Assembly: GCA_032622095.1 (NCBI GenBank)
Contig: CP136064.1
Coordinates: 192,293,948-192,357,947 of the forward strand
Reading direction: 5' to 3'
From: Siphonodentalium dalli
Lineage: Eukaryota; Mollusca; Scaphopoda; Gadilida; Siphonodentaliidae
Length of the DNA stretch: 64,000 bases
In this document: piece by piece, positions 13,701 to 57,994 of the stretch
Layout of the letters: every line of letters begins with the position of its first letter
How positions within the stretch are numbered: position 1 is the stretch's first letter
The notes under the pieces: model-generated
The model's input: the letters and a program-made list of their open reading frames with translations, nothing else
The model's database searches: none
Told to the model about the DNA's origin: nothing
Made by a program: the position numbers and the translations under genes

Positions 13701-16700
13701 AAAAGGCTGTAAGCGACTTTGATGGTGACAAATGTTGTATCTGGTAGTTTTTATCCTTTTTCAATTCTTGTTCTGGAAATCTCACACTAATTTCCCCCCC
13801 ATGACGGGAATTCACAAATCAACCATGTTGCATCCGGTCATCACTATGCCAGAAAGTAGAGTTTTTCTCTTAAAATGTTACAGTTTGGCAGATTACTATT
13901 GAGAAAAGTGATGAAAATATATGGTATATTGAAGTGTGAAATATATGTGTTTCGGCTTCATCACACATTTTCTCAACTGTTATTCAGTATTCACCCCCTC
14001 CATTAACTAGCATTCAGTACTAGTATTCAGGATTCAGTGTGGAGGGGGGTTAAACCCTCATCTAAGGACACACTCTAATGAGAGCTTCTCAATCTGATTA
14101 GGCGGATTCCTGGGTGTCAATTGCCTATATCTGCAGCCCGATGAATTACTATTCAATTGGACTAGGCAATAGGCAATGCCTGTGTAAAAGCAGAGGCAAA
14201 ATTAGTTTGCCTAGGTAAAATATGGGGTTACTAAAATTTCCAAAATGACTTCCGTTCACTCTTCTACATTGTTTTCCAATAGCATCCATGGGACTTGGGC
14301 ATCAACTATAAGGACATTGTTTGGGAGATGGTTGGGGAATTCTACATATTATATTGAGTCTAGAAACAATGTTCCCCAAAAATAACTATAATATAGATGA
14401 CGGTAATTTGAGTGAACTAGATGGAGTATTGTCTACATTATCTTTTATAACTAATCATAATAAAATATCATACAGTAATGCTCTAAATAATCGACTCCTT
14501 AACCACAGCAGAATTATGGGTAACTTTACAGGATTTAGTCACTGAGAGCTTTCCGATGAATGGCAACAAGCCATATTTCCGACTAAATCCCTGAAAAGTT
14601 ACCCATAATTATGCTGTGGTTAAGGAGTCGATTATTTAGAGCATTACTGTACCTGGGTTGTGAGGTTATTATTGATTTGAAATGGCAATACAAATGTTTT
14701 GTTGAAAAACTGCCCAGGTAATATCAGTTTTTAATAGGCCAATTTCTTCCATCTACATGCAGAAAAAGTATGTCCTTGTCATCTTTTCCTCAATTCCCAG
14801 GGCTATAACTTCTGTTTAGAATTTTAGCTTTCACCTCTCATCTGCATGACTTCAAATGTCATATTGAACACTTTCAACATCAGAAATGAAAATAGTGTCT
14901 TCTATTATATTGATACCTGGGTTGTGAGGTTATTATTGATTTGAAATGGCAATACAAATGTATTGTTGAAAAACTGCCCAGGTAATATCAGTTTTTAATA
15001 GGCCAATTTCTTCCACCTACATGCAGAAAAAGTATGTCCTTGTCATCTTTTCCTCAATTCCCAGGGCTATAACTTCTGTTTAGAATTTTAGCTTTCACCT
15101 CTCATCTGCATGACTTCAAATGTCATATTGAACACTTTCAACATCAGAAATGAAAATAGTGTCTTCTATTATATTGATATATTTAAGAATTGAATAATGA
15201 GAATTTGACTTGAATTGGGTTATGAATCGAAGTTCAGTCTATATATTTGTCTTATTATCATAATAGAAATCAAAGAATAGAAAAGAAGACAATGAGGGTC
15301 ATCACACAAAACCTATATTTCCACTTCTGTAATTTACCAAAGACTTTTCTCACATAATGTCAAATGATCGCTGGTTAGGCCAATATAAAAATATTGCTTG
15401 ATTTATAGCCACTCCCGACCCTATTTTAACTCCCCTCAATTGTTTTTATTTGCATATCATTTATGCAAATTGTTTTTCTCATTCCTTAACTCTTTCGTGA
15501 CGGGAGCTGCGCTGGTGCAGCATTAAAATCCCTGTGCCAGTGCATTCAATTATACAAGATCAAGGTAAATATTGTTAGGCCAATGCATTCTCTTATATAT
15601 GTGAGGAGCCCTATGGGCGACTCGCATATATAAGAGAATGCATTGGCACAGGGTTTTTCGCAAAAAAATCAGGAAGCTCCAGTCATGGAAGGGTTAATCA
15701 TCAAACTACATTTCAATGATCCATTAATCAGTCTAATTTGACAATCTAAATCACCTTGTAATATATAAGATAGGATACTGCTTCAGTATATAGAACTGTC
15801 CATAGCCATTTATGTTAGGAATAATAAAATAAAATTAAAAAATTGGCCCTCCGTCCAATTTTTCTAAAAAAATAGTTGGATGTAAATCTAACAATTTATT
15901 TATATTGGCCTTATAGGAAGTGTCAATGGTTGATTTGTCTATATTTTTCCATGGATAATATCAGCATAAAGACCTGAACTGACTTCAGTGAGAAAGAAGT
16001 CCAACAATTTTAACCCTTTCTACACTATAAACTCATTGACGAGTAGTTTCCTTAAGGAACTGTTAAGATAATAAATTCAACAAAAGATCATTGGTCGTTT
16101 GTTAAACTTATTATCTGAACATTTCCCACCAATTATATTAATAGGAATCCTTCTCCACTTGTATTATCTTCTGTCTGCTTATACTTTCTGAACACCCTCC
16201 AAATGAATAATGGACCATTCCAATGTATACTTTGTAACTGATTGAATGGGAGAATCCATTTAGTACAGAAAGAATAAAAAAAAATAAAAAATGCACTGCT
16301 GGGCGGAGGTAACGCCCCCGACTGTACAATCAGAGAGGATTTTTCTTATTTTTGTGCAAATACTTATTAAATGCCACTTTGTAAAGTTATGTTATTCATG
16401 AGTATTTAGTATGAATGTTGTTCTATATTAGCTTCAAATTTGGTCTAGTGCCACAAAAATAGAAGGAAAACTGAATTTTCTAAAAAAAAAAACTTAATTT
16501 TTTAAGTCGAAAAAGGGTCATAACTCTCACAATAACTCTCACAATTATCCGATTGAACCAAAATTTTACCTTGACCTGTATTGCGATATTGGTAATACAC
16601 AAAAAAACGGGTTTTGCAAATAAACAATCCAAAATCAAGTTATCATCTGGAAACCAAAAAAAGTAGCAGAAAACCTGAATTTTCTAAGTCCAAAAAGGGG

Positions 16701-36900: not shown

Positions 36901-39900
36901 TATATAGTGCTTTGTCAATTACTAGCTTTAAGTATACCTGTAGGTTATATGATGGTGAGAAATTGAGAATCGAATACGAGAAATATCCATGAGTCTTTGA
37001 TGAGTGGCTATTTCGAGTAAATGATTCTCACCATGATATAACCTACTTATAGCACACAATAAGAAAATTATTATTTACCGAATTTAATCAACAACTGCCC
37101 AATTTTGTATTGATTGAACAGTATACAGTAATGCCCTAAATAATCTACTCCTTAATCACAGCAGAATTATGGGTAACTTTTCAGGATTTAGTCTGAAATA
37201 TGGCTTGTTGCCATTCATCGGAAAGCTCTCAATGACAGCTTTCCGATGAATGGCAACAGGCCATATTTCCGACTAAATCCTGAAAATTACCTATAATTCT
37301 GCTGTGGTTAAGGAGTCGATTATTTAGGGCATTACTGCTCTCATGTATGTGTGATACTTAATCAACACTGTCTGGACAATGAGATAGAAAGTCTCTTCGG
37401 TCACTTCGCTAGATATAATACATGATTAAGGCCATTAATTAATATTGAACTTTTTAGCTAATTCTCATTTGTTTATTAATATCTGTCGTGGTTCAAATTT
37501 GTCATTTTTACAACTGCCCTGCCAGCAATCTGGAATAAAGCACATACCCACATATAAAATAGTGGGTCACATGACCTTTCGTAGAGTTTTCATTTTCCAA
37601 TGCTGCGATTCCACATCAGTATAGCACCAATCAGAACTCACTATTAGTAGCACCAAGATAAAGGGGTCCAATCAAAATGATGTGACGTAATTCTGGGGAA
37701 TACCACAAGCCTTCATGGGAAATTTAGTGGTAATACGATAGACTCAGTATCTGTCTGAATCTGAGTGTATGTTTAGATAGACTGCCCTGCCAGCAGCCAA
37801 CTTAGAATTAAACAAAAATATTGTGTTTTATAGTTCAAACAATTTTCATTGCCAAATGTTTTTGCAAAATTTACAATCCAGTTTGGGCACATATGTTGCT
37901 ACTTAGAATTGCTGCGGTCAAAATAATGGTATGTTGGATGGCAGTCAAAGTACTTATTATGCAATGGGATTCCAGTTGTACCTAATAATAAAGAGCGTTT
38001 CTGGTTGTTTTGATGCAAAAAATAAAGAACGTCTGCATGGAAACTTAAGAACAGCTAATATCACTCCCTATCAATTCTTTAGACCTTTTCATAGACTATA
38101 GTCTCCATATGACTATTTTGTTATATTTTCATTATCTTTCGACCTATTTGGACCACTGGAACGCAACACAGATCAGTTATGACTATAGGCTCAGTTTGAG
38201 ACTCTAATACAAAGTCTAACATTACTTAAAATTAAAAACTGTAACTTTCTTTTCAATGTTACAAATTCATCCTGATTTCACCAGTTACTAGTATGTTCAT
38301 GCTTGATATGTTTAACATTCATGGTTAAAACTCAATAAAGTTAACTTGTGAAGTTTTAGCACCCCCCCCCCCCCCCCACCGATGCCCTGACATATACACC
38401 CTCTGTGCAGGACTCAGCCTAGGGGTCCAGAACAGGGAGACTTGAAGTCTCCCTCCAGGAAATTTAGGGAGACTTCAGGAAATTTAGTGAGACTTCAGGG
38501 TGGGGAGACTACCAAAAATTGACAATTTTCAAATATCGCTTTATTTTATAACATCTGACAATAAAAAATTTAAAAAGATAAAAAACTAAAAATAAATTGA
38601 CTTTATCTGAAATTAGTTTAATTAATTGTTATTATACATTTAAAATTTTTGGAAATGTTTTGTGTAGCTATCATTTAAGCAAGACAATTATCAAGTTACA
38701 GTAATAGTTTTTTAACTAAATGAAAGTAGTATTATTTCCTAGACTGCAGCTTGGAAGATACGTTTGTACCGTCTGACTCTGAATCATGATGCATGTAACT
38801 TTTTAAGTTTAATTTGGTAACGGCTGTAATGTGGGTGTCCGCTAAAATAAACAATAAGGACTAACTAACAAAGGAGTTGCAAAAGCTTTTATTAATTAAT
38901 GGCCTCCCTTAATTAATGCCAACATCACTGGTATAATCCGATTAAAGCAATAAACTTGACATTATTTTATTTACGGAAGTCGGTCTCTTCAAAAAGTCCG
39001 ACGCGGTCTCTTCAAAAAGTCCGACGCGTTACCGAAACGAACTTCCGAAGCGCCTGGTACATACTCTGATAATGTCGTAATTGTTTTATATCTGAAAAGC
39101 GGGACGGCGGTCTTTTAAGTTAATAAAAACATTTATTTGTGACACTCACGATGGTCAGTAACAACACAGATGGGAACATCTCATCGTGTTTTCAGCGTGT
39201 CAAAACATTCGTTATTAACATTCATTACCGCAAAGGGAACAAAGGCGACGGAATAACAACACAAAACAATAGGTCATATTTTATTTTTTTATTTTAAACA
39301 CTTGGGTCTTTGGCTCTGCATCGTCTGTTTCTTTTTGGGATGGCCGCCACAATTCATCTATATACGGACATGTCCGGAAAAAAAACTAGAAAAAAAATTA
39401 AGAAAAAAAAAATTCCCCCTAAAATTGAAGGTGACTTCGATTTCGCCTTAGAGCGACGATAGGGCGAAGTCAGCGACAGTAAGGCGACAATCTCGCCCGA
39501 GTCGCCTTGTGAGCTGAGGCCTGCCTCTGTGAATGTTTGAATCATTTGTCGGCACATGCATATTTCCATTTTCTTGTCTCTTATATGCATTGCTAATTTG
39601 GTCCACTTTAGATTAAACGTCCATAATTGCACTGTAACAGTAGTTTTAACCCTTTGAGTGCCAGGTCAATTTTTGTATCAACCCATATACCCTGTGCCAA
39701 TGCATTCTCTTATATATGCGAGTCGACCATAGGTCGCCTTGCATATATAAGAGAATGCATTGGCCTAACATTTTTTTTTTTTTATTTTTTTTTATTTTTT
39801 ACAATTTTAATAATTTATTCTTATATTCTTTAACAGACTTATTTTGCAGGTTTAGGGCCGATGAGATCGGCCCCTGGCACTCAAAGGGTTAACACAACAA

Positions 39901-42900
39901 AAGTTTTGACATGCAAAATCTCATTATTTGAGAGTTATTAATAATGAAAATAAGAACAAAGTTTATCTATTTTTCATGTATTTGTTGATGATAGTTGTTT
40001 ATATAGTTTTGTTTTATTTCACATGAACCCACTTTGAATTATCTGAGTCCCTTTAACTTTGATGTCCATTTTTTTTCAGCCAGGACTGTTCAAAGCTATA
40101 GAAGACCACAACAAGGATAGGGTTGTAGAAATACTCAACTGCTGGGGTAAAATCGACATTCAAAAGGTAATATGAAGTTACTTCTGCTGAAAAACTAGTG
40201 TTCATATACATGTATGAGGCGATTTGATATCATATTGTACTTTATAATATCATGACAAAACGAAGACAGATGGCCAGTGGTAAATCCCATTAATCATGTT
40301 CAGTCAAAAAATCATCAACGATTTTCCACTCATGCAACTTACTTCTTAAAAATTTCTCATGCGCAAGATCATGAAAACATTGTTTTGTTACACTTTATGC
40401 ATAGTTACATCATTATTTGAATATATTATCAGGATTCGCAGCTCTATTATATATATATATATTCTAGTATACAGTAATGCCCTAAATAATCGACTCCTTA
40501 ACCAAAGCAGAATTATGGGTAACTTTTCAGGATTTAGTCAGAATATTGGCTTGTTGCCATTCATCGGAAAGCTCTCACTGAGAGATTTCCGATGAATGGC
40601 AACAAGCTAGTTTATCCCCAGACTAAATCCTGAAAAGTTACCCATAATTCTGCTGTGGTTAAGGAGTTGATTAATTACTGTATATATGAATAAATATTCT
40701 TAGTCAAGACCTATTTCTGCAAACAAAATGTTGCATATCAACTTTTTATGCAAATATATTTTTCATAAAATCAGAAGACTCAGAGCAGAATATTAAGCCT
40801 TCAAGAATATAAATATTTTTAAATATTTTAATAATGTCTCGATAATTGTTGCAAAGTGATATAATCAGGATGGCTCTTCTGACCGATCTTCAACAACCAA
40901 TGCAGCTATTACAGAATACTTTAGAACATATATGTTCTTGAATGTTTCTTGCAGGCACCAGCTTTTCCTCAAATTGCTGGTATTAACCAAAGTCAGCGAA
41001 ATTGATAATTTAAGAAAAATAACAGAGCGTCCCCAACATAGCTCAATCGGCAGACCCACCAATATCATAGCTGGACCATTTGACTACGGTGAAAACTATT
41101 ATAATTATGGAGTTTGATTGCTTATTATTATCCTACTATTTTGTTGCAGAATGGACAGTCTCTAAGGCAGTTTGCTGCAGCTTTAAAGTATCATGATATC
41201 GTCTGGATATTGGATCAGTACAGGGAGACTATGGTAGGACTGTTACTTACAGTAACATTGACACCTATGAAACCACACAAACAATAAAACCTTTTTGCGA
41301 TAGTGTAAGAAAGCCTAGATATAAAAATTCCTCCCATTATAGTAGCATGGTGGCACATATAACTAACAAACTTAATATAAACAGTGTTTAATTTAAATCA
41401 CATGAAACCCAACAATCATTACGTACTTTATTTTTCATGCATACATTGTATGTACAGTAATGCCCTAAATAATCGACTCCTTAACCGCACCAGAATTATG
41501 TATAATTCAGGATTTAGTCGGAAGTATGGCTTCTTGCCATTCATCGGAAAGCTCTCAGTGAGAGCTTTCTGATGAATGGCAACAAGCTAGTTTATCCCCT
41601 CTCAAAATTGAGCTACAGCGTCATTGACACTTCTATTTCTTTGGCCTTTAATATAGTTTTGGTTTTATATCGATAAAATGTGCAGCTATTTGTTTTATTG
41701 GTTGAGAAAAGACAGCAGAGCGAGTTAATTCCCCTGCATGTAGAAACCATTTATGATCCAAGCAAAGGTACGACCTGTAGCACATGCCAAAGGATTTCGT
41801 AATGCTAAGAGTAAAATCCAAGATAGCTGCCGGCAGCCATGTTTTATGGCCAAAAGAACCCAAAATGACTTGTTCACATCTATGTGTCAATATTAACGTC
41901 CATGACAAATTTCATGATGATCAGACGAACACTCCGGCCTGTAGCACGTGCTAATGGATTGAATTGTGAAATCCAAGATGACCGCTGGTGGCCATGTTTT
42001 ATAGCCGAATGACCCTAAGCTGACTCGTTCCCATCTACATGTCAATATCAACATCCAGGACAAATTTCATGATGATCCGAGCAAAGGTACGACCTGTAGC
42101 CCATGCTAATGGACATTGTTGACGAAATTCTCCAAGCGCACACGCACACATGGATGATGGATTCCAACCCATGGCAATAGCTCAAACTTAACAAAGTAAA
42201 GTTGAGCTAATATTAAAATACTATGTTCTCAGATACCTCCATCATCATCAGAAATAGGTTTCATCGAACATTTTTCTTTCCAAATTTACACAGAATATTA
42301 CAAGTGTTCAAATCTCAGCCATTTGTTAACAATTGGAAACTTTGATAGTTTGCTGATGAAGATGCAGTGACCAAAGGTACTGTAATAATATTGATTGCAT
42401 GGAGAATTTTAGATTTTATTCCAAAAAATTATCTACGCACCCTGAAACATCAATATAAAATTTCTAGAATTCTTGGAAAATATGAAAATAAAAGCATCCC
42501 TCCATCATAAAATTGTCCATGAATAATTGCCTGAGGAACCAGGTATTTATTTTCTATGGTCTAACTATCCAACTGCTATAATGGGAATCACAAACAAATG
42601 CAAAGATACAATAGGAGCCCTTCCCACTTTGTGATCTGTTAAACCTATTACATTCTCTATCTTTCACCAGGATGCAATCTATGGAGTTATGGAGCTGAAA
42701 TATGATAAAGTGTTGGATGTTTTATCAAAATCTAGATGTAACATCAATCTACTGAACAAGGTTGGTATGGTAACTTTGGTAACTTTTATAATCAACCATT
42801 TATGCGGGATAGCGTCACTAAATTCCCCCTCTGGGGTTCTCATGTGATACTTACCAGTATAATAAGCACTGGCTGGTGAGTGGTGTGAAGCCTTCGCAGT

Positions 42901-45900: not shown

Positions 45901-48900
45901 GTCATTCTTCCTCGCAATATTCGAGCGTTTGTTCACTCGTATAGGACAAGCTATTCAATTTTTCACTAAATGTAAATTTCATTCGATTTTGTCCATTTTG
46001 GTGGCCATTTTGTGAAAAATATTCTACATATATGGTTATGACTAAGCACTGTTTGTGTATATTTCAATTTATTACGAATTTGGCATTAATTGGAGCACCT
46101 GCCGCAGAATTCAGTGTTTTCCGATAACAACAGACATTATGGACGCCATCTTCAATAGAAAATTTTCCCCAAAGCAGATTTTAGCGGATTTTGGATATGT
46201 TGTTCCCTACATTCTGCCCGACAATATGACACCAAAAACAGCTTGTAAACAATTTGTTCTAGGTCCAATGCTTCAACGACCAGACTATAGAATTAATCGC
46301 TGATAAACATACAAATATGATTCTGCTGATGAGAGTCAGTTCATGTACTTTATATATGAGAATTTATACATGAGAATTATGTTGTGTGTGACCCATTTTG
46401 ATTAGACAAGATAAGATGATAACTACATTAACCCTTTCGTGACCATAATGCTTGCCTTGTTGTTTCTGGACCAAAACAGTATGAAATAAATAAAAAATAA
46501 ATGCTGTTAGTCATACCAGGCCATCGTCACTTAATAATCACCTGGAGCAGGTTACATTCCAAGTCTGGCCATGCAAATACTATTGGTAGATATTGATCTA
46601 GCTTAATACGAGGACATTTCTTGTATGAAGCGACCATTTCTTAATCTTTTCTGTACTAAATACTCATTAACGAGTAACGAGTAGATATCCCTTAGGAAAT
46701 GTTCAGACAATAAGTTCAACAGATGACCATAGGTCATTTGTTGAACTTATTATGTGAACATTTAACTCCAATAAATATAATTCCTTCTGTACTTGTATTA
46801 TCTGTCGTCTGCTTACTTTTTCCTGAAAAACTCTCCACATGAGTAATAGACCATTCCAATGGATACTTTTATAACTGAGTGGGAGAATGGTTAATATAGG
46901 TGGCCGAGATGCCAATGTGCCAACTGAGCCTCCAGCAGATTACCCGAAACATTTGTGTTAGAGTTAAGTAAGAATATTGGGCTAATCCGAAAAACAGCAG
47001 CATAGTCTTTAACCCTTCCACGACTGGATCTTCCTGATTTTTTACCAAAACCTGGTGCCAATGCATTCTCTTATATATGCGAGTCGCCCTTAGGGCACCT
47101 GACCTAAAAATATTTACGTTTACCTTATAAGCCAGTGCATTCTCTTATATATTTGAGGCTCCCTATGGGAGACTTGCATATATAAGAGAATGCACTGGCA
47201 CAGGTTCTTTAATGCTGCACCAGCGCATCTCCCATCATGAAAGGGTTAAGACCACTTTAATTTATCTACCTTGTTGTTCTGTTAACTCCCTTTTTCACAC
47301 TTCTAGCACTACCCTTCTTTTTGTAATTACTGTATCTAGGCACGTATAATCACACAATGCAGTCCATTTTTATGTTCTTTTCAGGGTCCCTTCTTCTTTG
47401 AAGCAATCAGTGAAAAAGTTCCCGAGGAAATCATGTGGAAAATCTTAAAGTCAGGTGCAGATTTGAGTCAGAAGGATGAGGTTGGTACCAGAATTATCTT
47501 TTCACTATTCATGAGATCATTCATGTAGAAAATATTATTCCACAACAGTTGACGTGAGGCACATGTGTCCAACAGCATCACGGCTATTGAATACATATTG
47601 TTATATACCACATTTTGAATACAACCCGGTGTAACAGGATATCTTCCCCACTGAATATCTCCCCCCCCCCACCCTGGATATCTCCCCCCCCCCATGTATG
47701 ACTAAAAAATAATTTCACTCATTTGATATCGTTTGGTTCTTAAATGGCCAGAAAAATGTTTTTTGAGATTAAAAAAAAAAAATTATTTTTAAAAAAAAAG
47801 TGACAAAATTATTGTTTTCACGAATTTGATTGTCTGTTCATTGACCAGAAAAATGTTTTTTTTTAATTCTCATTTTTTTCTTTTCTTTCAAATGTCCAGG
47901 CTTGGATATTCCACCACCCCCAGCACCTACCCCACACCCAGATCCTACATGACAAAAAAATCATCTTATGGTTTTATCGCTTATTTTGCTTTATATATTC
48001 ATGAGTCAGGGTTTGGGGTGGGGGGAAGATGATAATGATAATAAGATGATTTTTTTTGTCATGTAGGTGCTGGGGGGGGGGGGAGATATCCTGACCTGGA
48101 CATCTCCCCCCCCCCCCATCCCAAACCCTGACTCAAAAAACTTGTTCTCAGAAGAAGTTAATTTCTCGCTGTTTCATGACTATATAAAGCAAAACAAGCG
48201 ATAAAACCATAAGATTATTTTTTTTCATGTAGGTGCTGGGTGGGAGGGGGTGGGGAGATATCCTGACCTGGACATCTCCCCCCCCCCCCCCCCCAAACCC
48301 TGACTCAAAAAACTTTTTCTCAGAAGAAGTTAATTTCTCGTGTTTCATGACTATATAAAGCAAAACAAGCAATAAATCCATACAATGATTTATTTGTCAT
48401 GTAGGTGCTGGGTGGGGGGGAGATATCCTGACCTGGACATCTCCCCCCCCACCCCAAACCCTGACTCAAACAACTTTCTCTTGGAGAAGCTAATTTCTCG
48501 CTGTTTCATTACTATATAAAGCAAAATAAGCGATAAAACCATAAGATGATTTTTTTGTCATGTAGGTGCTGGGTGGGGGGGGGGGGGTGGAATATCCAAG
48601 CCTGGACGTTTGAAAGAAAAGAAAAAAATTGAATTAAAAAAAAACATTTTTCTGGTCATTTCATGAACAGACAATCAAATTCGTGGAAAAAAATAATTTT
48701 GTCACTTTTCTTTTTTAAATAAAAAAAAAATTAATTTGTTTTTTTAATTGAGGCCATAGTCAAGGATTGAACTTATCTGCACAAGGATCTGATACCATAA
48801 TCTCAAATCTTTCATCAAACTCATTGCGGACGGCGCATATTTATATTTACTTGAGCTCTGCTCTCGTGAAATAAATTGTTGCACTGTACGTGACTTATTC

Positions 48901-51900
48901 AATAAAAGATTGTAAAATAAGGTGTGCATTTTGTTTTGTCTATTTATAGTAAGATTTGATTGGTAAATGCAATAACTGACATTGTAGGTTAACTATGTCA
49001 CTCTCCTTCAGCAATATTACTCAAACTGTTATTTTTTTTATTATTTGATTTCTTAGATTCAATCATCCATAAATTTGAATATTTGCTCAATCATAATTAA
49101 ATATACCTCCATCCCAAAAGATCGCTTTTTGCCTCTGTCCATCCGATCATTCGCTCATATATCTCAACCATGGATTATTGTATATTGATGAAATTTGGCA
49201 TCAGGAGGGCTTTCGAAAGAGGGTTCATTGATGTTGTTTACAATTTCCATTCAAGAGTTATCAGATCTCAATGAAATTTGGTGGGCAGGTTCAAGAGTTA
49301 TCCCTATTTTTTTGTCTGAAAATGTTGGAATTCCGTCTGTCATTCATAAGAATTGTCCAGTAATTTGTTCGTTCATCACACTTTTTTTCACAATTTGTTT
49401 TCCGACCTGCCCATATTTCAATTTTCACCATGGGGATATTCCAGCACCCGTGGTGCAACCTCTTTGTTCATTAATGTTTTTACTTAAAGATGCATAATCT
49501 GAATTAACGCTCCCAAATTACTATTTATTTGGTTTCGGGTTAAAAAATATTTGATTTGAGTCAAGGAACCTGCCCATCAAAGCTCAGTGATCAGATATTG
49601 ATTTTTGCAAATTGTTATTTCCGAGATGTGTAATATTTGGCGGCCTGGCAAATATTCGTCAAGCCGACGGCCTCGGACCAAATTGCGGATGAAGATGGAT
49701 TACTTTAAATCAAGTGGCTTTTTGTGTTAGATATTTGACAATTCGGCCAAATTTCATTGAACAAAATGTTGATAAATAACACGTTTTGGGCAATTTTGTA
49801 CTTTTGTACTGAAGCAGTATTTAAAAAAATGTTGTTGTTGGAATATGATGATATGGGAACCAGCGAATAGGATTGAGTACCTTTAACCTGCACTTTTTCA
49901 GCTGTATCGTCAAAAAGATTATTCCAGAATTGTGAATCTACATTGTTTTGTCTACCATATTGGAACTTATGTTGATACTTTAACCCTTTCTATACTAAAT
50001 GGATTATCCCAGTCAGTTAATAAGTGTACATCGGAATGGTCTATTATTGATTTGCAGGGACATACAGGTAATATAAGCAGATGACAGATAAATAAAAATA
50101 CAGACGGAGTCATATTTATTGAGGGAAATGTTTAGATAATAAGTTCAACAAACGACCTGGTCGTTTGTTGAATTTATTATCTGAACATTTCCTATGGGAT
50201 AACTACTCGTCAATGATGCTTTTTATAGAAAGGATTAAACTAGTAGCAAGCACCCTAACATGACAGCGTGGACATAGGAAACTGGTTCTACTAAATTGAA
50301 TGAATTTTCTTGCAGAGAGGAAGAAACGCAATGATTTATGCTATGGATAAATGGCACGGACAATGCCCTATAGCTCTCATCAAATATTTACTGGACAGTG
50401 GGGTAAACATTGCTGATCGAGACCAGGTGAGGTTGTTGCTGGGAAATTCGACTTTTCTGCTATTTCTTCCAGTGAATATAACAAAAAAGTTGTTCAAAAC
50501 AGAGAGGAAATAAAATTTTATATGTCTTCCACCTAATCGTCTACTTTTACCTAATAAATACAGGTCAAGTTTAAATTTGGGTTCTGTCTGCCAATTTTTA
50601 GCAGAGTTATGGTCCTTTTTGACTTAGATTTCGCCGATTATTTTGGTTTCAGTGTGATAACTTTAGTTTTAGTTATCTGACTGTTTTAAAATTTTGTATG
50701 TGGATTAGTCACATGAAAATACAGGTCAAGTTCAAATTTGGGTTTGGTGTGCCCATTTTTATCAGAGCTATGGTCCTTGTTGACTTATAATTTGCTGATT
50801 ATTTTGGTTTTTGGATGATAACTTTAGCTATTGTTTTCAAATTTTGTGTGTGGATTACTCACATGAAAATACAGGTCAATATCAAATTTGGATGTGGTCC
50901 ACCTATTTTTATTTGGCCACAAACACAGCGATCAGTGGTAGAGATATAATTTTGTTTTTTACTTTCAGACTGGAGTGACAATCAGAGATGTCATCAAGTT
51001 TCAAAGAAGAAAAGATCTCTTCTCTCTAATGGAGCATGTAGGTATCAATATCAGACATCTTTCCTGTGTACTTACAGTAATGCTCTAAATAATTGACTCC
51101 TTAACCACAACAGAATTATGGGTAATTTTTCAGTATTTAGTCAGAAATATGGCTTGTTGTCACTGAGAGCATTCTGATGAATGGCAACAAGCCATATTTC
51201 CGACTAAATCCGGAAAAATTACCCATAATTCTGCTGTGATTAAGGAGTCAATTATTTAGGGCATTACTGTAGCTATAAAATATCTACTAAATGTTTATAT
51301 AGTTTTTAGTAGCTTTCTATCTGGTGATAAAATAGATCTATAACCAGCCCTCGAAATTAGGAAAAATGCAAATTTAATGATGTGGCATGTTAGATTTCAA
51401 ATGTTGCGACAGCATTTCTCACAGCATTGCTTATTGCCATGGCTGATTTCGAGGACTATAGCTATATGAAATGATTTCCATACTGAGTTCATTTGCCCCG
51501 GACAGACTTTTGGAAGTCATAACATTCAAACTTCAGAGACAAAATATGGGTCCTTTATTTCTTCCAGTTGCATGGAGAGCACATGTCAAATAATAATAAA
51601 GAATGTTTTTGTTTTCAATGCTTCATTGTCATGTTTCGTTTGGAAATATTATTCATCTGTCTGCCCAAATTATGTATATGCATGACAGAATTATGTGTGC
51701 ATAATTTAGAGGTTCAAACGAGCCAAGTCTGAGTTAGAAAAAGTCAAAACAATTAGGTGAAATTTAGCAGCAGATCACTGTAGTTACAGCAACAAACGAA
51801 AAGGCATTACCACACTTCATTAAATTACCTCTGAGAAGGCCTGATAATAAGGTGCCTGTCATTTACAGAATGAGGTCCCAAGAGGGTGAATTTAGTGATG

Positions 51901-53427
51901 CTATTGCACATAGTGGGCTAGCATCACTAAATTCACCCTCTGGGGATCTCATTCTGCTTAGACCTCATCTTCTCTGGAAAGATTCTTTATTATCAAAATT
52001 CTATAGAAACTTCTTCACATAGATTCTATTTCTTTTTAGTTTCTCTATACATGTATCCCCAAATTGGCAGATGACACAATGTATAATCGAGGTTCCCGAT
52101 GGGTGTACATCGCAATATTCACCATTTTGGAACTGCAAACTGAGTCTATGTCTCCCGTAAGAAATGAGGCCATGCAGAATGAGGTCCCAAGAGGGTGAAT
52201 TTGGTGATGCTAGCCCACTGTGTGGATAGCATCACTAAATTCCCCCTCTGGGGACCTCATTCTGCAAAGGACAGGCACACTAAACTCAGGCATGCCTCTG
52301 AGGTGTCATAACAAATTTTGATCCATTTTCAAATACATATTGTGTTGTAGCTTTAGAAATTGTATACTATATACCTCTTTCTTACAGAAAATGATAAACT
52401 TAATAAGGGAACAAGATTTAAAGTCCATGAAACAGTTATTGACTGATGGATACGATGGTCTCCTCATGAAATACAATGTGAGTTTGATGTTATGGAAATT
52501 TGTATAGAATCATTGGGACAAACTAAATTGTTTACCAAACATCCATTGATTTGTTCCGAGTGGCCAAACTTGTGTTTCAGTGTATATGTGATAGGGTATT
52601 CGCTGTCCTGAGTTATTTTTTAAGTTGTACCAAATGTATAATTTTGCCACATTTTCTCAAAAGTTGCCAAACACATTTTGCACGCACTAGGAAAATAACT
52701 TTTCATGTTTAGGTATGGTTATGTTTCTGCATGGCTGGATAAGACTTAGTTATTCAAACCTTGAGTGTTCGAGCAATTAGCAACTATGCTGCAGGTTTTT
52801 CTAACAATGTAATGGAATTAACTGATGACCAGATCACTATACCATGTTGATAAGAATAAGATTAATAGGTTGAGCTCATGTTTTTTTGAAAACTCAACTT
52901 CCAGTTTGGTGAGGTCGGCTCATGGGCAGGCATGCATTGTGGTGGTCTACAGCGCAATAACTTGAACAAATATCAACTGATTTTGTTGCTATTCGGTATA
53001 TGAGACTTGCTCAACAGATTTGTCTGTGATAGCCGGTTACAATTAATGCATTTTCAATCCATGCCCATGTTGTGCATATACAGTAATGCCCTAAATAATC
53101 GACTCCTTAACCATAGCAGAATTAGGGTAATTTTTCAGGATTTAGTCGGAAATATGGCTTGTTGCCATTCATCGGAAAGCTCTCACTGAGAGCTTTCTGA
53201 TGAATGGCAACAAGCCATATTTCTGACTAAATCCTGAAACATTACCCATAATTCTACTGTGGTTATGGATTCGATTATTTATGGCATTACTGTAGCTTCC
53301 CCAACTTGACCCCACATCTCTGATGAGATTGTTGTGCCTTTGACAGTATAAAGACTCTCTGATATATGCTTCTGGAAATGAGACAGATGAAGTGGTGAAG
53401 TTCATTGAATATGTTCCAGTCTTCCAG
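30969..53427 (+). CDS. Ankyrin-repeat protein gene, 14 exons (406 codons), end uncertain
   Basis: Fourteen plus-strand exons (listed separately) each have an AG acceptor and GT donor, are open throughout and join in frame. Every intron is phase 0. Exons are 23-41 codons, close to a single 33-residue ankyrin unit. The clearest repeats are residues 41-73 (KGNTYLHYVA...VLQILVDAGVKINAQNK) and 74-106 (HGNTALHVTA...LLACGTDPSLCDK). Others are diverged, with signatures such as ILCDAGAHVN (exon 9), ILKSGADLSQKD (exon 10) and LLDSGVNIADRD (exon 11). No transmembrane segment, signal peptide or catalytic domain is visible in the part read. The chosen start (MAGEMVQLSE) has GCC after ATG and a clean donor. 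I do not recognise a named orthologue; a protein-binding scaffold role is only the general expectation for ankyrin proteins. It faces away from BRAP, about 9.6 kb from BRAP exon a. Confidence 0.85.
31921..32200. repeat. Array A of the palindrome TTGGACTTAAGTCCAA
   Basis: Ten CTTAAG cores, most within the full 16-bp palindrome, separated by short AT-rich spacers (AATAATT, ATACC, AATAGCGA). The array itself contains an inverted pair based on TACCACATAATTGTGAATTC. Confidence 0.9.
32935..33210. repeat. Array B of the palindrome TTGGACTTAAGTCCAA
   Basis: About twelve copies (eleven CTTAAG, one CTTACG) with the same spacer style. Several units carry single changes (GTCAAA, GTACAA, GTCTAA). Confidence 0.9.
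33480..34065 (+). repeat. Degenerate direct duplication, about 350 bp period
   Basis: Shared blocks include GGTATATCT-AATTTCAC, ACG-TATAAGCTA, TTGCCTAGYAACCGTT and GGCAAAGTCTC, in the same order and direction. Confidence 0.65.
34576..34665 (+). CDS. Ankyrin gene exon 2
   Basis: Acceptor CATTTTCAG and donor AGG|GTAATG. It encodes SKIGQAIKDGDPRGLKQLIA followed by SHENVQFKDR, a helical ankyrin-cap-like segment. Confidence 0.85.
34705..34895 (+). repeat. Repeat paired with 27190-27420
   Basis: See the partner: ATTTCGAATGGCGTTATGGT opens it and CACGTTATTACTATTATTAC closes it. Starts about 40 bp after ankyrin exon 2. Confidence 0.6.
35594..35692 (+). CDS. Ankyrin gene exon 3
   Basis: Acceptor TATTTTTAG and donor AAG|GTTAGT. 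It encodes one full 33-residue ankyrin repeat with GNTYLHYVA and VLQILVDAGVKINAQN. Confidence 0.92.
36228..36326 (+). CDS. Ankyrin gene exon 4
   Basis: Acceptor GACTTTCAG and donor AAG|GTCGGT. One 33-residue repeat: HGNTALHVTALRDD then HVGDLLACGTDPSLCDK. Confidence 0.92.
36737..36805 (+). CDS. Ankyrin gene exon 5
   Basis: Acceptor CTTTTTAG and donor GAG|GTAAAT. It encodes DGKTAYDIRSKNKFWNDIYS then KYE, an ankyrin unit opening of the DGKTAYD type. Confidence 0.88.
36941..37045. repeat. Small fold-back repeat
   Basis: TAGGTTATATGATGGTGAGAA faces TTCTCACCATGATATAACCTA around a loop with TATTTCGAGT-like inverse pairs; 80 bp before MITE copy 2. Confidence 0.7.
37126..37337. mobile_element. TA-flanked fold-back MITE, copy 2
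   Basis: CAGTAATGCCCTAAATAATC at the left and its inverse at the right. Nearly a perfect palindrome centred on a short loop near AAAGCTCTCAATGACAGCTTT. Left TA present; the right TA is mutated. Lies in the ankyrin gene intron 5. Confidence 0.85.
38408..39523. mobile_element. 1.1 kb hAT-type element with exact 8-bp target duplication
   Basis: CAGGACTCAGC left end and GCTGAGGCCTG right end, flanked by CCTCTGTG on both sides (38400-38407, 39524-39531). The left subterminal region repeats GGGAGACTTCAGG-like units; the right has GGCGAAGTC/GGCGACA units. No transposase frame is left. In ankyrin intron 5. Confidence 0.8.
39650..39888. mobile_element. TTAA MITE with TATATA hairpin
   Basis: TTAA flanks; CCCTTTGAGTGCCAGG / CCTGGCACTCAAAGGG inverted ends; internal hairpin with GCATTCTCTTATATATGCG. 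About 95% like the copy at 57760. In ankyrin intron 5. Confidence 0.85.
40080..40166 (+). CDS. Ankyrin gene exon 6
   Basis: Acceptor TTTTTTTTCAG and donor AAG|GTAATA. It encodes PGLFKAIEDHNKDRVVEILN then CWGKIDIQK. Confidence 0.87.
40472..40680. mobile_element. TA-flanked fold-back MITE, copy 3
   Basis: Same family; TA on both sides. The right end has lost about 10 bp (TTAATTACTG instead of TTATTTAGGGCATTACTG). It shares AACAAGCTAGTTTATCCCC with copy 4, marking a sub-lineage. In intron 6. Confidence 0.85.
41150..41233 (+). CDS. Ankyrin gene exon 7
   Basis: Acceptor TTTGTTGCAG and donor ATG|GTAGGA. It encodes NGQSLRQFAAALKYHDIVWI then LDQYRETM. Confidence 0.86.
41455..41600. mobile_element. 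TA-flanked fold-back MITE, copy 4 (truncated)
   Basis: Left arm and loop present, right arm lost after AACAAGCTAGTTTATCCCC. In intron 7 of the ankyrin gene. Confidence 0.8.
41755..42220 (+). repeat. Degenerate tandem repeat, three units of 155-164 bp
   Basis: Units start GATCCAAGCAAAGGTACGAC (41755), GATCAGACGAACACTCCGGC (41919) and GATCCGAGCAAAGGTACGAC (42074), each followed by CCTGTAGC-C-TGC-AA-GGA. Closed by CAATAGCTCAAACTT. In ankyrin intron 7. Confidence 0.75.
42671..42760 (+). CDS. Ankyrin gene exon 8
   Basis: Acceptor CTTTCACCAG and donor AAG|GTTGGT. It encodes DAIYGVMELKYDKVLDVLSK then SRCNINLLNK, a diverged ankyrin unit. Confidence 0.86.
43830..43952 (+). CDS. Ankyrin gene exon 9
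   Basis: Acceptor TCTTTACAG and donor TTG|GTAGGC. It encodes ACRQQHILQHALTLRDMRMV then KILCDAGAHVNTQVLVYGYF and L. At 41 codons it is longer than the others; the tail after AHVNTQ does not look like ankyrin, so the donor could be internal. Confidence 0.8.
44113..46287. mobile_element. 2.2 kb element with about 190-bp inverted ends
   Basis: TAGTCTGGTCGTTGA at the left and its inverse at the right; the arms stay alignable for about 190 bp (shared CCTAGAACAAATTGTTTACA, GGAACAACATATCCAAAATC, GATGGCGTCCA). Interior holds short frames on both strands (44478-44732 +, 45718-45936 -) with no recognised domain. In ankyrin intron 9. Confidence 0.75.
46645..46890. mobile_element. TTAA MITE of the GTTCAACAAACGACC subfamily
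   Basis: TTAA on both sides, internal inverted pair GACAATAAGTTCAACAGATG / inverse. Ends decayed. Confidence 0.65.
47013..47245. mobile_element. TTAA MITE with two TATATA hairpins
   Basis: TTAA flanks, CCCTTCCACGACTGGA / TCCCATCATGAAAGGG ends, two hairpin modules. Ends 139 bp before ankyrin exon 10. Confidence 0.8.
47385..47480 (+). CDS. Ankyrin gene exon 10
   Basis: Acceptor TTCTTTTCAG and donor GAG|GTTGGT. It encodes GPFFFEAISEKVPEEIMWKI then LKSGADLSQKDE. Confidence 0.88.
47770..48760. mobile_element. Fold-back structure with internal 160-170 bp tandem units
   Basis: The left arm (47770-48000) and right arm (about 48540-48760) are inverted copies: CCAGGCTTGGATATTCCACC faces GGTGGAATATCCAAGCCTGG, and GACAAAATTATTGTTTTCAC faces its near-inverse. 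Between them CATGTAGGTGCTGGG recurs at 48060, 48226, 48398 and 48559. Each unit also carries GATATCCTGACCTGGACATC, a CCCTGACTCA block and GCAAAACAAGCGATAAA. Flanking G/C runs vary in length. The layout resembles Foldback-type transposons. Confidence 0.7.
49984..50234. mobile_element. TTAA MITE of the GTTCAACAAACGACC subfamily
   Basis: TTAA flanks, CCCTTTCTATACTAAATGG / inverse-like right end, and the pair GATAATAAGTTCAACAAACG / inverse. Ends 81 bp before ankyrin exon 11. Confidence 0.75.
50316..50426 (+). CDS. Ankyrin gene exon 11
   Basis: Acceptor TTTCTTGCAG and donor CAG|GTGAGG. It encodes RGRNAMIYAMDKWHGQCPIA then LIKYLLDSGVNIADRDQ, a clear ankyrin repeat. Confidence 0.92.
50561..50915 (+). 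repeat. Degenerate tandem repeat, 150-161 bp units
   Basis: CAGGTCAAGTTTAAATTTGG at 50561, with related starts at 50722 and 50872. Each unit has a GAGTTATGGTCCTTTTTGAC-type segment and TTTTGGTTT. Confidence 0.7.
50969..51037 (+). CDS. Ankyrin gene exon 12
   Basis: Acceptor TTACTTTCAG and donor CAT|GTAGGT. It encodes TGVTIRDVIKFQRRKDLFSL then MEH. Confidence 0.86.
51075..51269. mobile_element. TA-flanked fold-back MITE, copy 5
   Basis: Intact termini and TA on both sides; the arms differ by a small deletion near the loop. In intron 12. Confidence 0.85.
51868..51958. repeat. Hairpin repeat: AGAATGAGGTCCC...GGGATCTCATTCT
   Basis: AGAATGAGGTCCCAAGAGGG and its inverse, with GAATTTAGTGATGCTA arms. 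A second copy lies at 52178-52266; single arms lie near 11790, 42808 and 59495. Also associated with CCCCAAATTGGCAGATGACA at 11702, 52058 and 59639, so these belong to one composite family. Confidence 0.7.
52178..52266. repeat. Second copy of the AGAATGAGGTCCC hairpin
   Basis: GCAGAATGAGGTCCCAAGAG with its inverse, and a short loop containing CCCACTGTGTGGATAGC. Same family as 51868-51958, 220 bp away, in ankyrin intron 12. Confidence 0.7.
52388..52477 (+). CDS. Ankyrin gene exon 13
   Basis: Acceptor TTTCTTACAG and donor AAT|GTGAGT. It encodes KMINLIREQDLKSMKQLLTD then GYDGLLMKYN. Confidence 0.87.
53081..53292. mobile_element. TA-flanked fold-back MITE, copy 6
   Basis: Intact fold-back element ending only 54 bp before ankyrin exon 14. 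TA on both sides. Confidence 0.85.
53347..53427 (+). CDS. Ankyrin gene exon 14
   Basis: Acceptor CCTTTGACAG and donor CAG|GTACGT. It encodes YKDSLIYASGNETDEVVKFI then EYVPVFQ, an ankyrin-like unit (DSLIYAS...VVKFIE). A good donor follows, so at least one more exon exists. Confidence 0.86.
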
Positions 53428-53831
53428 GTACGTTATTCACCATGTTTCTACTTCATTTAATATATTAACAACATTTTTACATGTTATCATGTCATACTGG
53501 TATTTTTACAGCGCTTACTCTAATGCCCTAAATTATCTACTCCTTAACCACAGCAGAATTATGGGTAATTTTTCAGGATTTAATCGGAAATATGGCATGT
53601 TATGTGATTGACAGCACAAAAGAGCATCTGATTGGCCTGCGCAAATGCCTTAAGGAAAGACACAAAGGTGCAGATGCCATCAAGATTATCACAAAGGCGC
53701 ATGGGCGTGGTTTACTCCCTTTCACGCGCCGAAGTCATGCGGAATTGGATTACATGTTGTCACAAACAGGCATGGGCGTGGTCTTCTAAGACGCGTGTTG
53801 GTAATTATGATCACATCGTGCGTGAATCGGA

Positions 53832-54124
53832 TTAGGACCAGACAAATGGGCAGCGCCTAATTAAACATTTGCGCATATGCCTAATAACACATTCACGCAT
53901 TTCGCCCAACATTGCTCTCACATTTGGAGCTATTGTCTTACAGTTCAGAAGATCTTTCAACAATGGACACGTTATAATAACTAAACCGAAATCACTTTGT
54001 TTCGTTGGATCAACAAGATTAGTTTGTCCTTTAACAACTTGTGTCAATATTTTTGGGACCTTTTCAGCGCCGCCGAATTGCAGAATAGCACATGTGGGGC
54101 TACCACGAGACAGTTCTCCAAGAG
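53832..54124 (-). CDS. Open minus-strand exon inside the 2.6 kb transposon, function unknown
   Basis: After acceptor TTTATTTTCAG (54125) the minus strand is open for 97 codons to a stop. It reads LGELSRGSPTCAILQFGGAE, then LTQVVKGQTNLVDPTKQSDF, then GLVIITCPLLKDLL and ends CPFVWS. Composition looks protein-like and it runs opposite to the NRF-1-like frame. No family was recognised. A possible upstream exon (54393-54472, start MKSALRLLKKNQ, donor AAG|GTAAG) does not join in frame from its ATG, so the gene model is unresolved and may be decayed. Confidence 0.3.
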
Positions 54125-54875
54125 CTGAAAATAAAAATAAAAATAGTTTAATATAAAGAATTTAATATGTAATAAAGTACATTAAAGGCATGGGCGGCGT
54201 TCGTTGCAGAAATATTTATATTTGTTCTATTGGTTAATCACACAAAATTTATATAAACGCTCTTTATTATTTCCATATCAGGAAAAAAGTAACAACCAAC
54301 GCTCTTTATGTTTACCATATCCGGTTTAAGTTACAAATTTATCTGGAAAAGTGCATTCACAAATAACAATTATAAAAATATGTTAATCTTACCTTTCTGA
54401 TACAATTGGACGTCGAGTCGTATTCGGGTTTGGTCGCTGATTTTTTTTCAGTAGTCTCAATGCACTTTTCATTGTGAACAAAATGAACTACAAAGAACTA
54501 AAACACATCATGTACGAACATAGGTAAAATAATTTATGAGGAATTGTATCCCGCGTATACTTGGCTTTGCTATTTTTTCACCGCAATTGAATGGGTTGCG
54601 CAATATTTAATTACCTGTCATAAATAAAGCAATTTTCTACTCAAATTCATAATAGACTTTGTAGAATGGGCGCCAAACACATTAGCATATAAAACCAGCA
54701 TCCGGAAGTCATATTAAGAAAGCTGAATAGAAGCCTCATTTATGCCTGGTGAAAGTTAAATACCACTTAACAACTCGCCTAATACTCTCACCTAACGCAT
54801 GGAATGTCATATACAGATTAAATAGTTGGTGTCGAGTTAAACCGGAATAATTGGCTGCTCCTAATCCATGTTGTG

Positions 54876-54882
54876 TATATAT
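54876..54882 (+). promoter_or_regulatory. Possible TATA box for the NRF-1-like ORF
   Basis: TATATAT about 60 bp before the ATG at 54938, within TTGTGTATATATGTATC. The spacing would put transcription start near 54907. AT-rich background makes this tentative. Confidence 0.35.
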
Positions 54883-54937
54883 GTATCACGATAAGGGTTC
54901 ATAACAAATCGCAATAGTCACATACATCACACAAACA

Positions 54938-55678
54938 ATGACAAGTCTTCGTAAACGTGAAATCGAGCGCCTTTTGTCGAAAGCAAAAGATGCCACCTAC
55001 AAATTTATGCAGGGTGGATATCCAGTGGCGTTCGTTTGTCTTACACAGGACGCAATGGTTACAACACATGGCCATACTTCAATAACTAGCGTTGTGTTGG
55101 ATTATTCCAACAGAATAATTGCTGATGCAAGTTCCGGAGAAATAAGTGATGTCAAGAACACGTCAGCTTTTGTGACGTTCGACGACGCAGCACATTTTGA
55201 GAGTCTGCCGGCACATACTTTGAGGAGAGTGGTGACTGGCCTGGTGCGTTTCGAGAGCGGAGGTTACAGTCAACCAAACTGGGGTGGCGATCCCAAGCCG
55301 GCCTGGTGAAGTGACGACATTCCGTGGGCGAAGGTCGGTGTGAAACAAGGTGTAAAAGTCGGAGACTTGCGAACACTAGTGGCTGCAGCATACGAAGCCC
55401 ATGAACAGAAACTGTTCCTGACCGGGGAGCCGGAATTTGAAGGCGGGAATGATGGAGATGGTGACGGTGATGACACAATCCATACTGCCGTGAACATAAC
55501 TACATCCCCGGAATCGGATGCAGCTAACTTCACCGTTGCCTTATCGGAATGTGAATCCCAATTGGAAAGTTTAACAACGGACGACCACGAGGAACCTGAT
55601 CATCACAGAGAAACGCCACAGAGACGAATCCAGAGACAAAGAAAACCATGCATAGTGTTCACACCAAGTAACCAATGA
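54938..55678 (+). pseudogene. NRF-1/Erect wing-like DNA-binding protein ORF inside a transposon, one in-frame stop
   Basis: One frame of 247 codons, split by TGA at 55307-55309. The first part begins MTSLRKREIERLLSKAKDAT and contains GGYPVAFVCLTQDA and TSITSVVLDYSNRI. It then reads LPAHTLRRVVTGLVRF, QPNWGGDPKPAW, stop, SDDIPWAKV, LRTLVAAAYEAHEQKLFL. This follows the NRF-1/EWG DNA-binding and dimerisation domain in order: the L-A-...-Y-...-G-A-V-C helix/strand region, VV-x2-Y, the LR helix, P-x-WG, KPxWW-x-x-DIPWA-x-V and LRT-x-V-x4-Y-x2-H. The stop replaces the second W of the WW pair, a single G-to-A change from TGG. An acidic tail (EGGNDGDGDGDD) and a basic C-terminus (RRIQRQRKP) follow. 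TATATAT lies about 60 bp upstream and AATAAA about 80 bp downstream. It is intronless, unlike the host genes. Alternative: a host NRF-1-like retrocopy that happens to lie inside the element. Confidence 0.7.
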
Positions 55679-55757
55679 CTTTCAAGTTTTTAATAATGTA
55701 AATCAAAGTTGTGGTTATTGTGTTAAAGTTTGTGATATAGCTCGATTTCACCATTTA

Positions 55758-55763
55758 AATAAA
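55758..55763 (+). terminator. Polyadenylation signal AATAAA after the NRF-1-like ORF
   Basis: A canonical AATAAA 80 bp after the TGA that ends the 247-codon frame, followed by a T/GT-rich stretch. Confidence 0.5.
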
Positions 55764-56162
55764 ATTTTATATTCATTTGCAAAAACGTTTGTCTTGTCCT
55801 TTGTATATAAGACATTATAACACAAAATAGTCATGTGCAATTTCCATGTGTTGGTTTATGAGACATGTTGATTGTCATGCGCAATTTCCACTCTGCGCAT
55901 GTGTTGGTTTATGAGACATATGCGGGTGTGTGGATATCCGCAGCCTCAATAGAACTGTCAGCGCCTGCGGGTTTGTCAATACAAGGATCATGTTACCGCA
56001 GAGCCACACAATGCTCCTTTGTCGGCTTAACTACGGCAAACCCGCTGTGCGCCTTTGTTTAAATCCCGCTAAATTACATACCTCATTATTTAGGGCATTA
56101 CTATAGCTTGAACATTGGCCCACATATACATAGAACTAAATTGTTATTAAATTGGCTATTAA

Positions 56163-57759: not shown

Positions 57760-57994
57760 CCCTTTGAGTGCCAGGTCCGATTTTTGTATCAACCCATATA
57801 CCCTGTGCCAGTGTATTCTCTTATATATGCGAGTCGACCATAGGTCGCCTCGCATATATAAGAGAATGCATTGGCCTAACAATTTTATTTTTTTTTACAA
57901 TTTTTTACAATTTTAATAATTTATTCTTATATTCTTTAACAGACTTATTTTGTAGGTTTAGGGCCGATGAGATTGGCCCCTGGCACTCAAAGGG
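57760..57994. mobile_element. TTAA MITE with TATATA hairpin
   Basis: TTAA flanks, CCCTTTGAGTGCCAGGTCCG / inverse ends and the same hairpin as the copy at 39650. Confidence 0.85.

Follow-up and report, generated by a model that had tools for sequence, protein, structure and literature searches.

Why does a transposon-like element in the genome of the scaphopod Siphonodentalium dalli contain a gene for a protein of the NRF-1/Erect wing (EWG) type? Transcription factors of this type are conserved in animals. The locus lies in a 64,000-nt stretch of contig CP136064.1 (positions 192,293,948 to 192,357,947; hereafter the window), and an earlier note had read it from the letters alone. We propose that it is probably a degenerate copy of a DNA transposon that moves by cut and paste, is related to the KDZ (Kyakuja, Dileera, Zisupton) superfamily and has an NRF-1-type accessory protein; of the anatomy of the element we are nearly certain. 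Its parts in the window are as follows.

53599..56084: copy of the NRF-1-type/KDZ transposon (family A), truncated on the left and internally deleted (alignment with family copies)
54938..55678, plus strand: NRF-1/EWG-type gene, a single exon of 246 codons and the final stop (frame analysis, Pfam and structure matches)
53898..54122, minus strand: KDZ-type transposase gene, of which 75 codons remain (93% identity to P0002 residues 168-242; 41-57% to L047, L043 and P0003)
56071..56084: terminus on the NRF side, AAATTACATACCTC (as its reverse complement, GAGGTATGTAATTT), 14 bases that families A and B share
55758..55763, plus strand: AATAAA, a possible polyadenylation signal 3' of the NRF-1-type frame (read in the sequence)

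The intronless frame of 247 codons described in the earlier note is present, counted here as 246 codons and the final stop, and it is broken once, by a TGA at 55307-55309. In several other copies this internal stop is absent and the frame is likewise a single exon. With the TGA read as tryptophan, the window protein matched the Pfam family Nrf1_DNA-bind (PF10491; E 4.5e-6, 27.0 bits, curated cut-off 23.5 bits) and, with residues 3-155, the solved NRF1 dimer 8k4l (E 1.1e-7), so the domain resemblance that the note had seen was borne out by the profile search with the stop masked. The match is independent of the read-through, since the stop-free frame of L013 matches the profile too (E 7.7e-7), as do the members of A3, an alignment of eight NRF-type family proteins from which the window's copy was left out. 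All eight matched PF10491 at E ≤0.01 (best 5.1e-10), and the A3 profile matched 8k4l at E 2.7e-13. In a scan of three NRF-type proteins L050 and L042 scored above the cut-off and L048, with 21.2 bits, below it. The protein, about 245 residues long, consists of the dimerisation and DNA-binding domains of NRF-1 and, judged by eye, also has a basic tail and an acidic stretch. A single-sequence structure prediction of the window protein was uninformative (pLDDT 35).

Next to this gene, on the opposite strand, lies the transposase remnant, which the earlier note had overlooked. We searched the genome (2.23 Gb, 9 contigs) with both proteins. The NRF-type search gave 111 matches (141 of 141 candidates scored), merged into 83 loci, and the KDZ-type search at least 100 matches (93 of 336 candidates scored), merged into at least 84 loci. 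A KDZ locus was found within 5 kb of 29 of the 83 NRF-type loci, where random placement would give 0.03. All 29 pairs are divergent (head to head), and 13 of them have NRF-type proteins less than 75% identical to that of the window. The window copy is not counted among the 29 because its transposase remnant went unscored. Altogether four diverged lineages carry this gene pair. In two decayed copies, L066 and L067, the NRF-type gene is accompanied, at a distance of about 1.8 and 0.7 kb respectively, by pieces that cover almost the entire transposase (P0003 residues 1-743); an exact-pattern search for the termini found only one in L066 and none in L067.

We assign the transposase to the KDZ type through its relatives, direct Pfam KDZ matches of the element transposases being below the cut-off. 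Among 47 relatives (E 8e-180 to 3e-28), 20 carry a precomputed Pfam KDZ match, and three of the seven that were rescanned scored above the cut-off. The RNase H-like DDE core is present. For the cysteine-rich (CxC) N-terminal cluster, the relative P0042 matched CxC4 above the cut-off and P0027 just below. A Foldseek search with a KDZ relative returned no match at E 0.001, a second alignment alone proving informative, and the transposase profile had a single match among solved structures, at a meaningless E of 0.72.

To define the ends, we compared copies of the element. A genome-wide DNA search with the window element gave at least 99 matching stretches (40 of 3,816 candidates scored), and 20 loci were fetched. 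Most family copies align to the window from 53599 until 56083-56085, and a few extend some bases more; L018 and L025 lack the left part. The extended copies have the left terminus CATATATGTAATT and the right terminus GAGGTATGTAATTT, read as the reverse complement, so that copies outside the window end in CATATATGTAATT and GAGGTATGTAA. Judged against them, the window copy lacks about 43 bases of its left end. The 14-base NRF-side terminus has single changes in some A and B copies and differs by one base in family C. The search proposed in the earlier note thus did find further copies with the open reading frame, and they share termini of their own, not those of the surrounding miniature inverted-repeat transposable element (MITE).

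Target duplications were scanned at 25 loci; where end patterns could be paired in several ways the script kept the pair giving the best duplication, and its ends concur with those read by eye. Both end patterns are present at 22 of the 25 loci, and 20 of these 22 have an exact 7-bp duplication. Of the other two, L043 reads as an 8-bp duplication and L009 is without a true right end. The 20 duplications comprise 17 distinct, varied target sequences. Those of L013 and L014 are the same, as are those of L020, L021 and L022, and because the duplications are shared these loci look like segmental copies rather than independent insertions. L013 also has a second stretch of the left part of the element about 1.1 kb outside the first, which points to a nested or duplicated insertion.

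The earlier note had taken the MITE-type ends and a flanking TA for those of the element. MITE ends do flank the window copy, as listed here; they are not its own, since other copies end elsewhere, and 20 loci of three families have 7-bp duplications in place of the TA.

53521..53601, plus strand: left part of a MITE, its last bases overlapping the junction at 53599 (85-91% identity to the MITE at 51073-51273)
56085..56107, plus strand: right end of the MITE (95.7% identity to MITE positions 179-201)
56085..56091: ATTATTT, the probable right copy of a 7-bp target duplication whose left copy was lost with the left end (inferred from the 20 duplications elsewhere)
14471-14651, 37124-37337, 40470-40677, 41453-41587, 51073-51273 and 53079-53296: MITE copies (comparison within the window)

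This palindromic MITE is about 200 bp long and starts with TACAGTAATGC, and the six other copies in the window are complete or partial. At the window locus about 90 bp of the interrupted MITE are gone. The simplest reading is that the element inserted at ATTATTT in the right end of the MITE and that a deletion over the left junction followed. L011 is a second element copy interrupting the same MITE family (duplication ATAATTC), so the MITE served as a landing site in the two places seen.

Families A, B and C have both termini in common, single bases apart. Compared with their counterparts in B and C, the A proteins show 63-68% identity for the transposase and 37-50% for the NRF-type protein; between element lineages the NRF-type proteins share 38-54% identity. 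Third codon positions differ between lineages at 0.63-0.71 of sites and first and second positions at 0.22-0.48, and synonymous distances are mostly saturated. Closer comparisons gave nonsynonymous (dN) and synonymous (dS) distances of 0.051 and 0.157 for the window and L013, 0.025 and 0.057 within family B, and 0.045 and 0.064 within family C, all biased towards constraint because the frames were chosen for being open.

NRF-1 is commonly regarded as a single-copy gene. The host has two multi-exon NRF-1 genes (L051-L056), both on contig C1 and separated by 3.4 Mb, one near 133.9 Mb (133911756-133923904) and the other near 137.3 Mb (137296317-137313571), each split over five matched stretches, where the element gene has one exon. 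Over joined exon pieces they are 73% identical to each other and 72% to human NRF1. Element NRF-type proteins are only 23-31% identical to pieces of these genes. In the tree, a phylogeny with host NRF-1 that the earlier note had called for, human NRF1 and the two host genes are grouped with support 1.00, apart from the element proteins and separated from them by a long branch. Since the pair of genes recurs in four lineages and its NRF-type protein is so distant from the host genes, we conclude that it is an old two-gene transposon lineage and not a retrocopy. The NRF-1/EWG-type domain which the earlier note had placed in a transposon is there; the tie to the MITE family and its TA duplication is lost.

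The tree is unrooted and so silent on which came first, the element or the cellular NRF-1. Its cellular clade joins beside the L067 piece (support 0.855), and the five element lineages in this one genome diverge more than the host genes do from human NRF1. Both observations would fit a reversal of capture, in which cellular NRF-1/Erect wing derives from a DNA-binding protein that early animals domesticated out of a KDZ-type transposon. Rapid evolution of transposons could produce the same pattern, and we consider domestication improbable.

What would the protein do for the element? The whole element has two genes transcribed away from each other, one for a transposase of about 750 residues (judged by its relatives) with an RNase H-like DDE core, the other for the NRF-1-type protein. 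In the mechanism that we propose, the transposase would cut at the CATATATG / GAGGTATG ends and produce the 7-bp duplications. The NRF-1-type protein, as a dimer, would bind repeated sites inside both ends and help the transposase to find or pair them, comparable to the Myb-like protein of Harbinger, and it may additionally regulate the shared promoter. The NRF-1 half-sites of the window copy are these.

53638..53643: TGCGCA, an NRF-1 half-site; others start at 53870, 54597, 55878 and 55894 (the window copy has five in all, where shuffles predict 0.84)

In four family A copies TGCGCA occurs 5, 5, 8 and 5 times, where 0.84-1.07 are expected. In the outer 450 bp of three A copies we counted 11, 10 and 8 YGCGCA (expected 2.1, 2.4 and 1.4), and none of 1,000 shuffles reached these counts; the palindromic TGCGCA is counted twice in data and shuffles alike. 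An open word scan of the A ends found the seven-letter CATGCGC significant after correction (0.013). Half-sites are enriched at the A ends and not at those of the two sister families, so end binding is an inference, to which we give an even chance. It is consistent with family A; elsewhere a different site may now be used. Recurrent family-specific end words, from the open scan, are leads: in B (L048) TGACACAA occurs five times, and in C (L049) one side has ACGCGCAG four times while CGTAACGC is found at both ends. An accessory protein at the ends or a self-regulator, as the earlier note had suggested, stays the best guess, with the MITE termini no longer those ends.

In NRF1, R206, N242 and R244 read bases, and W224 is among the residues holding the backbone (PMC10810270). 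When six element proteins are aligned with human NRF1, with residues numbered by us via the chain offset of 8k4l, all of them keep R206 and the GxGxPxWG tryptophan, R244 is aligned with lysine, and the base-reading triad is not present as a set. The decayed copy L066 has a stop right after the R206 codon.

Several points weigh against the proposed reading. N242 is replaced by lysine or serine in the element proteins, whose DNA-binding domain is also 10 residues shorter than that of NRF1, the missing residues being those before LRT; TGCGC therefore need not be the binding site. The A copies are relatives of each other and so count as one observation. The six-letter TGCGCA was not significant in the open scan of the A ends after correction (0.36), and families B and C have no significant half-site excess (P 0.064 to 0.554). 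On the side of the transposase, 54 of the 83 NRF-type loci are without a scored KDZ match within 5 kb (with 93 of 336 KDZ candidates scored), the direct Pfam KDZ matches (E 0.0012 and 0.024) are below the cut-off, and the L047 transposase, which shows CTTC..CTTCQH by eye, had no Pfam match. Not one of the copies examined is intact in both genes. Finally, L013 and L015 differ with dN 0.016 and dS 0.000.

The protein could instead be chiefly the transcription factor of the element, activating or limiting the shared promoter with no part in cutting. The head-to-head genes have one intergenic region in common, and cellular NRF1 is a promoter-binding factor (PMC10810270). However, the outer 450 bp hold 11 of 11, 10 of 12 and 8 of 10 YGCGCA in the three A copies, and we find this role rather unlikely. 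Still less likely, in our judgement, is a passenger or decoy, in which a captured host domain mimics NRF-1 and so reaches open, unmethylated host promoters or blunts silencing. CpG observed/expected is 0.96-1.22 in eight element copies (the window copy, L012, L016, L017, L046, L048, L049 and L050) and 0.63 for the window overall, and in fungi, transposons including KDZ have TET/JBP genes that are believed to act against methylation (PMC12730594). The high CpG of the copies could also come from young age or absent methylation. Against a decoy, the base-reading residues of NRF-1 are only partly retained and the 17 distinct target sequences are varied. A host NRF-1 retrocopy that landed by chance in a MITE would explain the intronless frame and the position of the window copy; the termini and duplications that other copies have of their own, the 29 of 29 divergent transposase pairings and the low identity to host NRF-1 rule this out in practice. 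That the element belongs to the MITE family and the MITEs are deletion derivatives of it, as the flanking MITE ends might hint, is refuted by the different ends of the other copies, which share neither the terminal inverted repeat nor the TA duplication of the MITE family, and by the insertion of L011 into that same family.

Two further repeats were noted in the window. Units recur every 161-172 bp at 48067-48581, with G-run/C-run palindromes, and two 69-bp repeats at 47131-47199 and 57807-57875, which match each other with 80% identity and in inverted orientation as well, are perhaps a second MITE family.

How does the proposed KDZ-related element compare with known systems? Its transposase is related to those of KDZ elements, although distant from the Pfam KDZ model. 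Target duplications are 7 bp in Kyakuja of Laccaria and 8 bp in Zisupton and Dileera (PMC12730594), and 4-8 bp in KDZ elements of Cryptococcus (PMC12810828), a range which includes those found here. Kyakuja of Laccaria has CA..TG ends without inverted repeats, whereas the element has CA...TC with short imperfect ones, and some fungal KDZ elements also have an extra gene, which is TET/JBP there and an NRF-1-type DNA-binding protein here (PMC12730594). Harbinger has, apart from its transposase, a Myb-like protein that binds to the terminal repeats and accompanies the transposase into the nucleus (PMC9179366). Both systems combine a transposase with a separate, less conserved DNA-binding protein, in the element as judged from its sequence; the two transposases and the two DNA-binding domains are unrelated. 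A Pfam scan of the two element proteins (E ≤1) gave weak KDZ and Nrf1_DNA-bind only, with neither a Harbinger transposase nor a Myb domain. The Harbinger Myb-like system would still be the closest functional model. With NRF-1/Erect wing/P3A2 the element protein shares the order of the dimerisation and DNA-binding domains, KPxWW, the W of PW, R206 and, in most proteins, LRT. It differs in its intronless, multicopy gene, in its length and in the sequence changes described above.

An NRF-1-type relative was not found in the protein collections, either with one sequence (351 candidates) or with the eight-member profile (2,938), in searches confined to proteins that have exact words in common with the query and 0.55-1.75 times its length. 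Cellular NRF-1, with about 500 residues, lies outside this reach, so absence elsewhere is not demonstrated by it. Viral contigs gave 31 pattern matches, none of them a relative. We found no NRF-1-type gene in a transposon in the open-access literature searched, supplements and most subscription journals lying outside the reach of the search. "Nrf" does not occur in the main text of the paper on fungal TET/JBP transposons (PMC12730594), nor NRF1 or KDZ, by a term search, in that of an animal survey on transposon-derived transcription factors (PMC10027918), and a survey of transposon domains does not mention Nrf (PMC12062965). The structure paper calls the DNA-binding mode of NRF-1 novel (PMC10810270).

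An NRF-1-type gene would be a new accessory gene for KDZ transposons. We know of no mobile relatives of the NRF-1/EWG family before, and the diverged transposon-borne lineages would provide it with such relatives. It would thereby become testable whether a metazoan regulator was derived from a transposon or taken by one.
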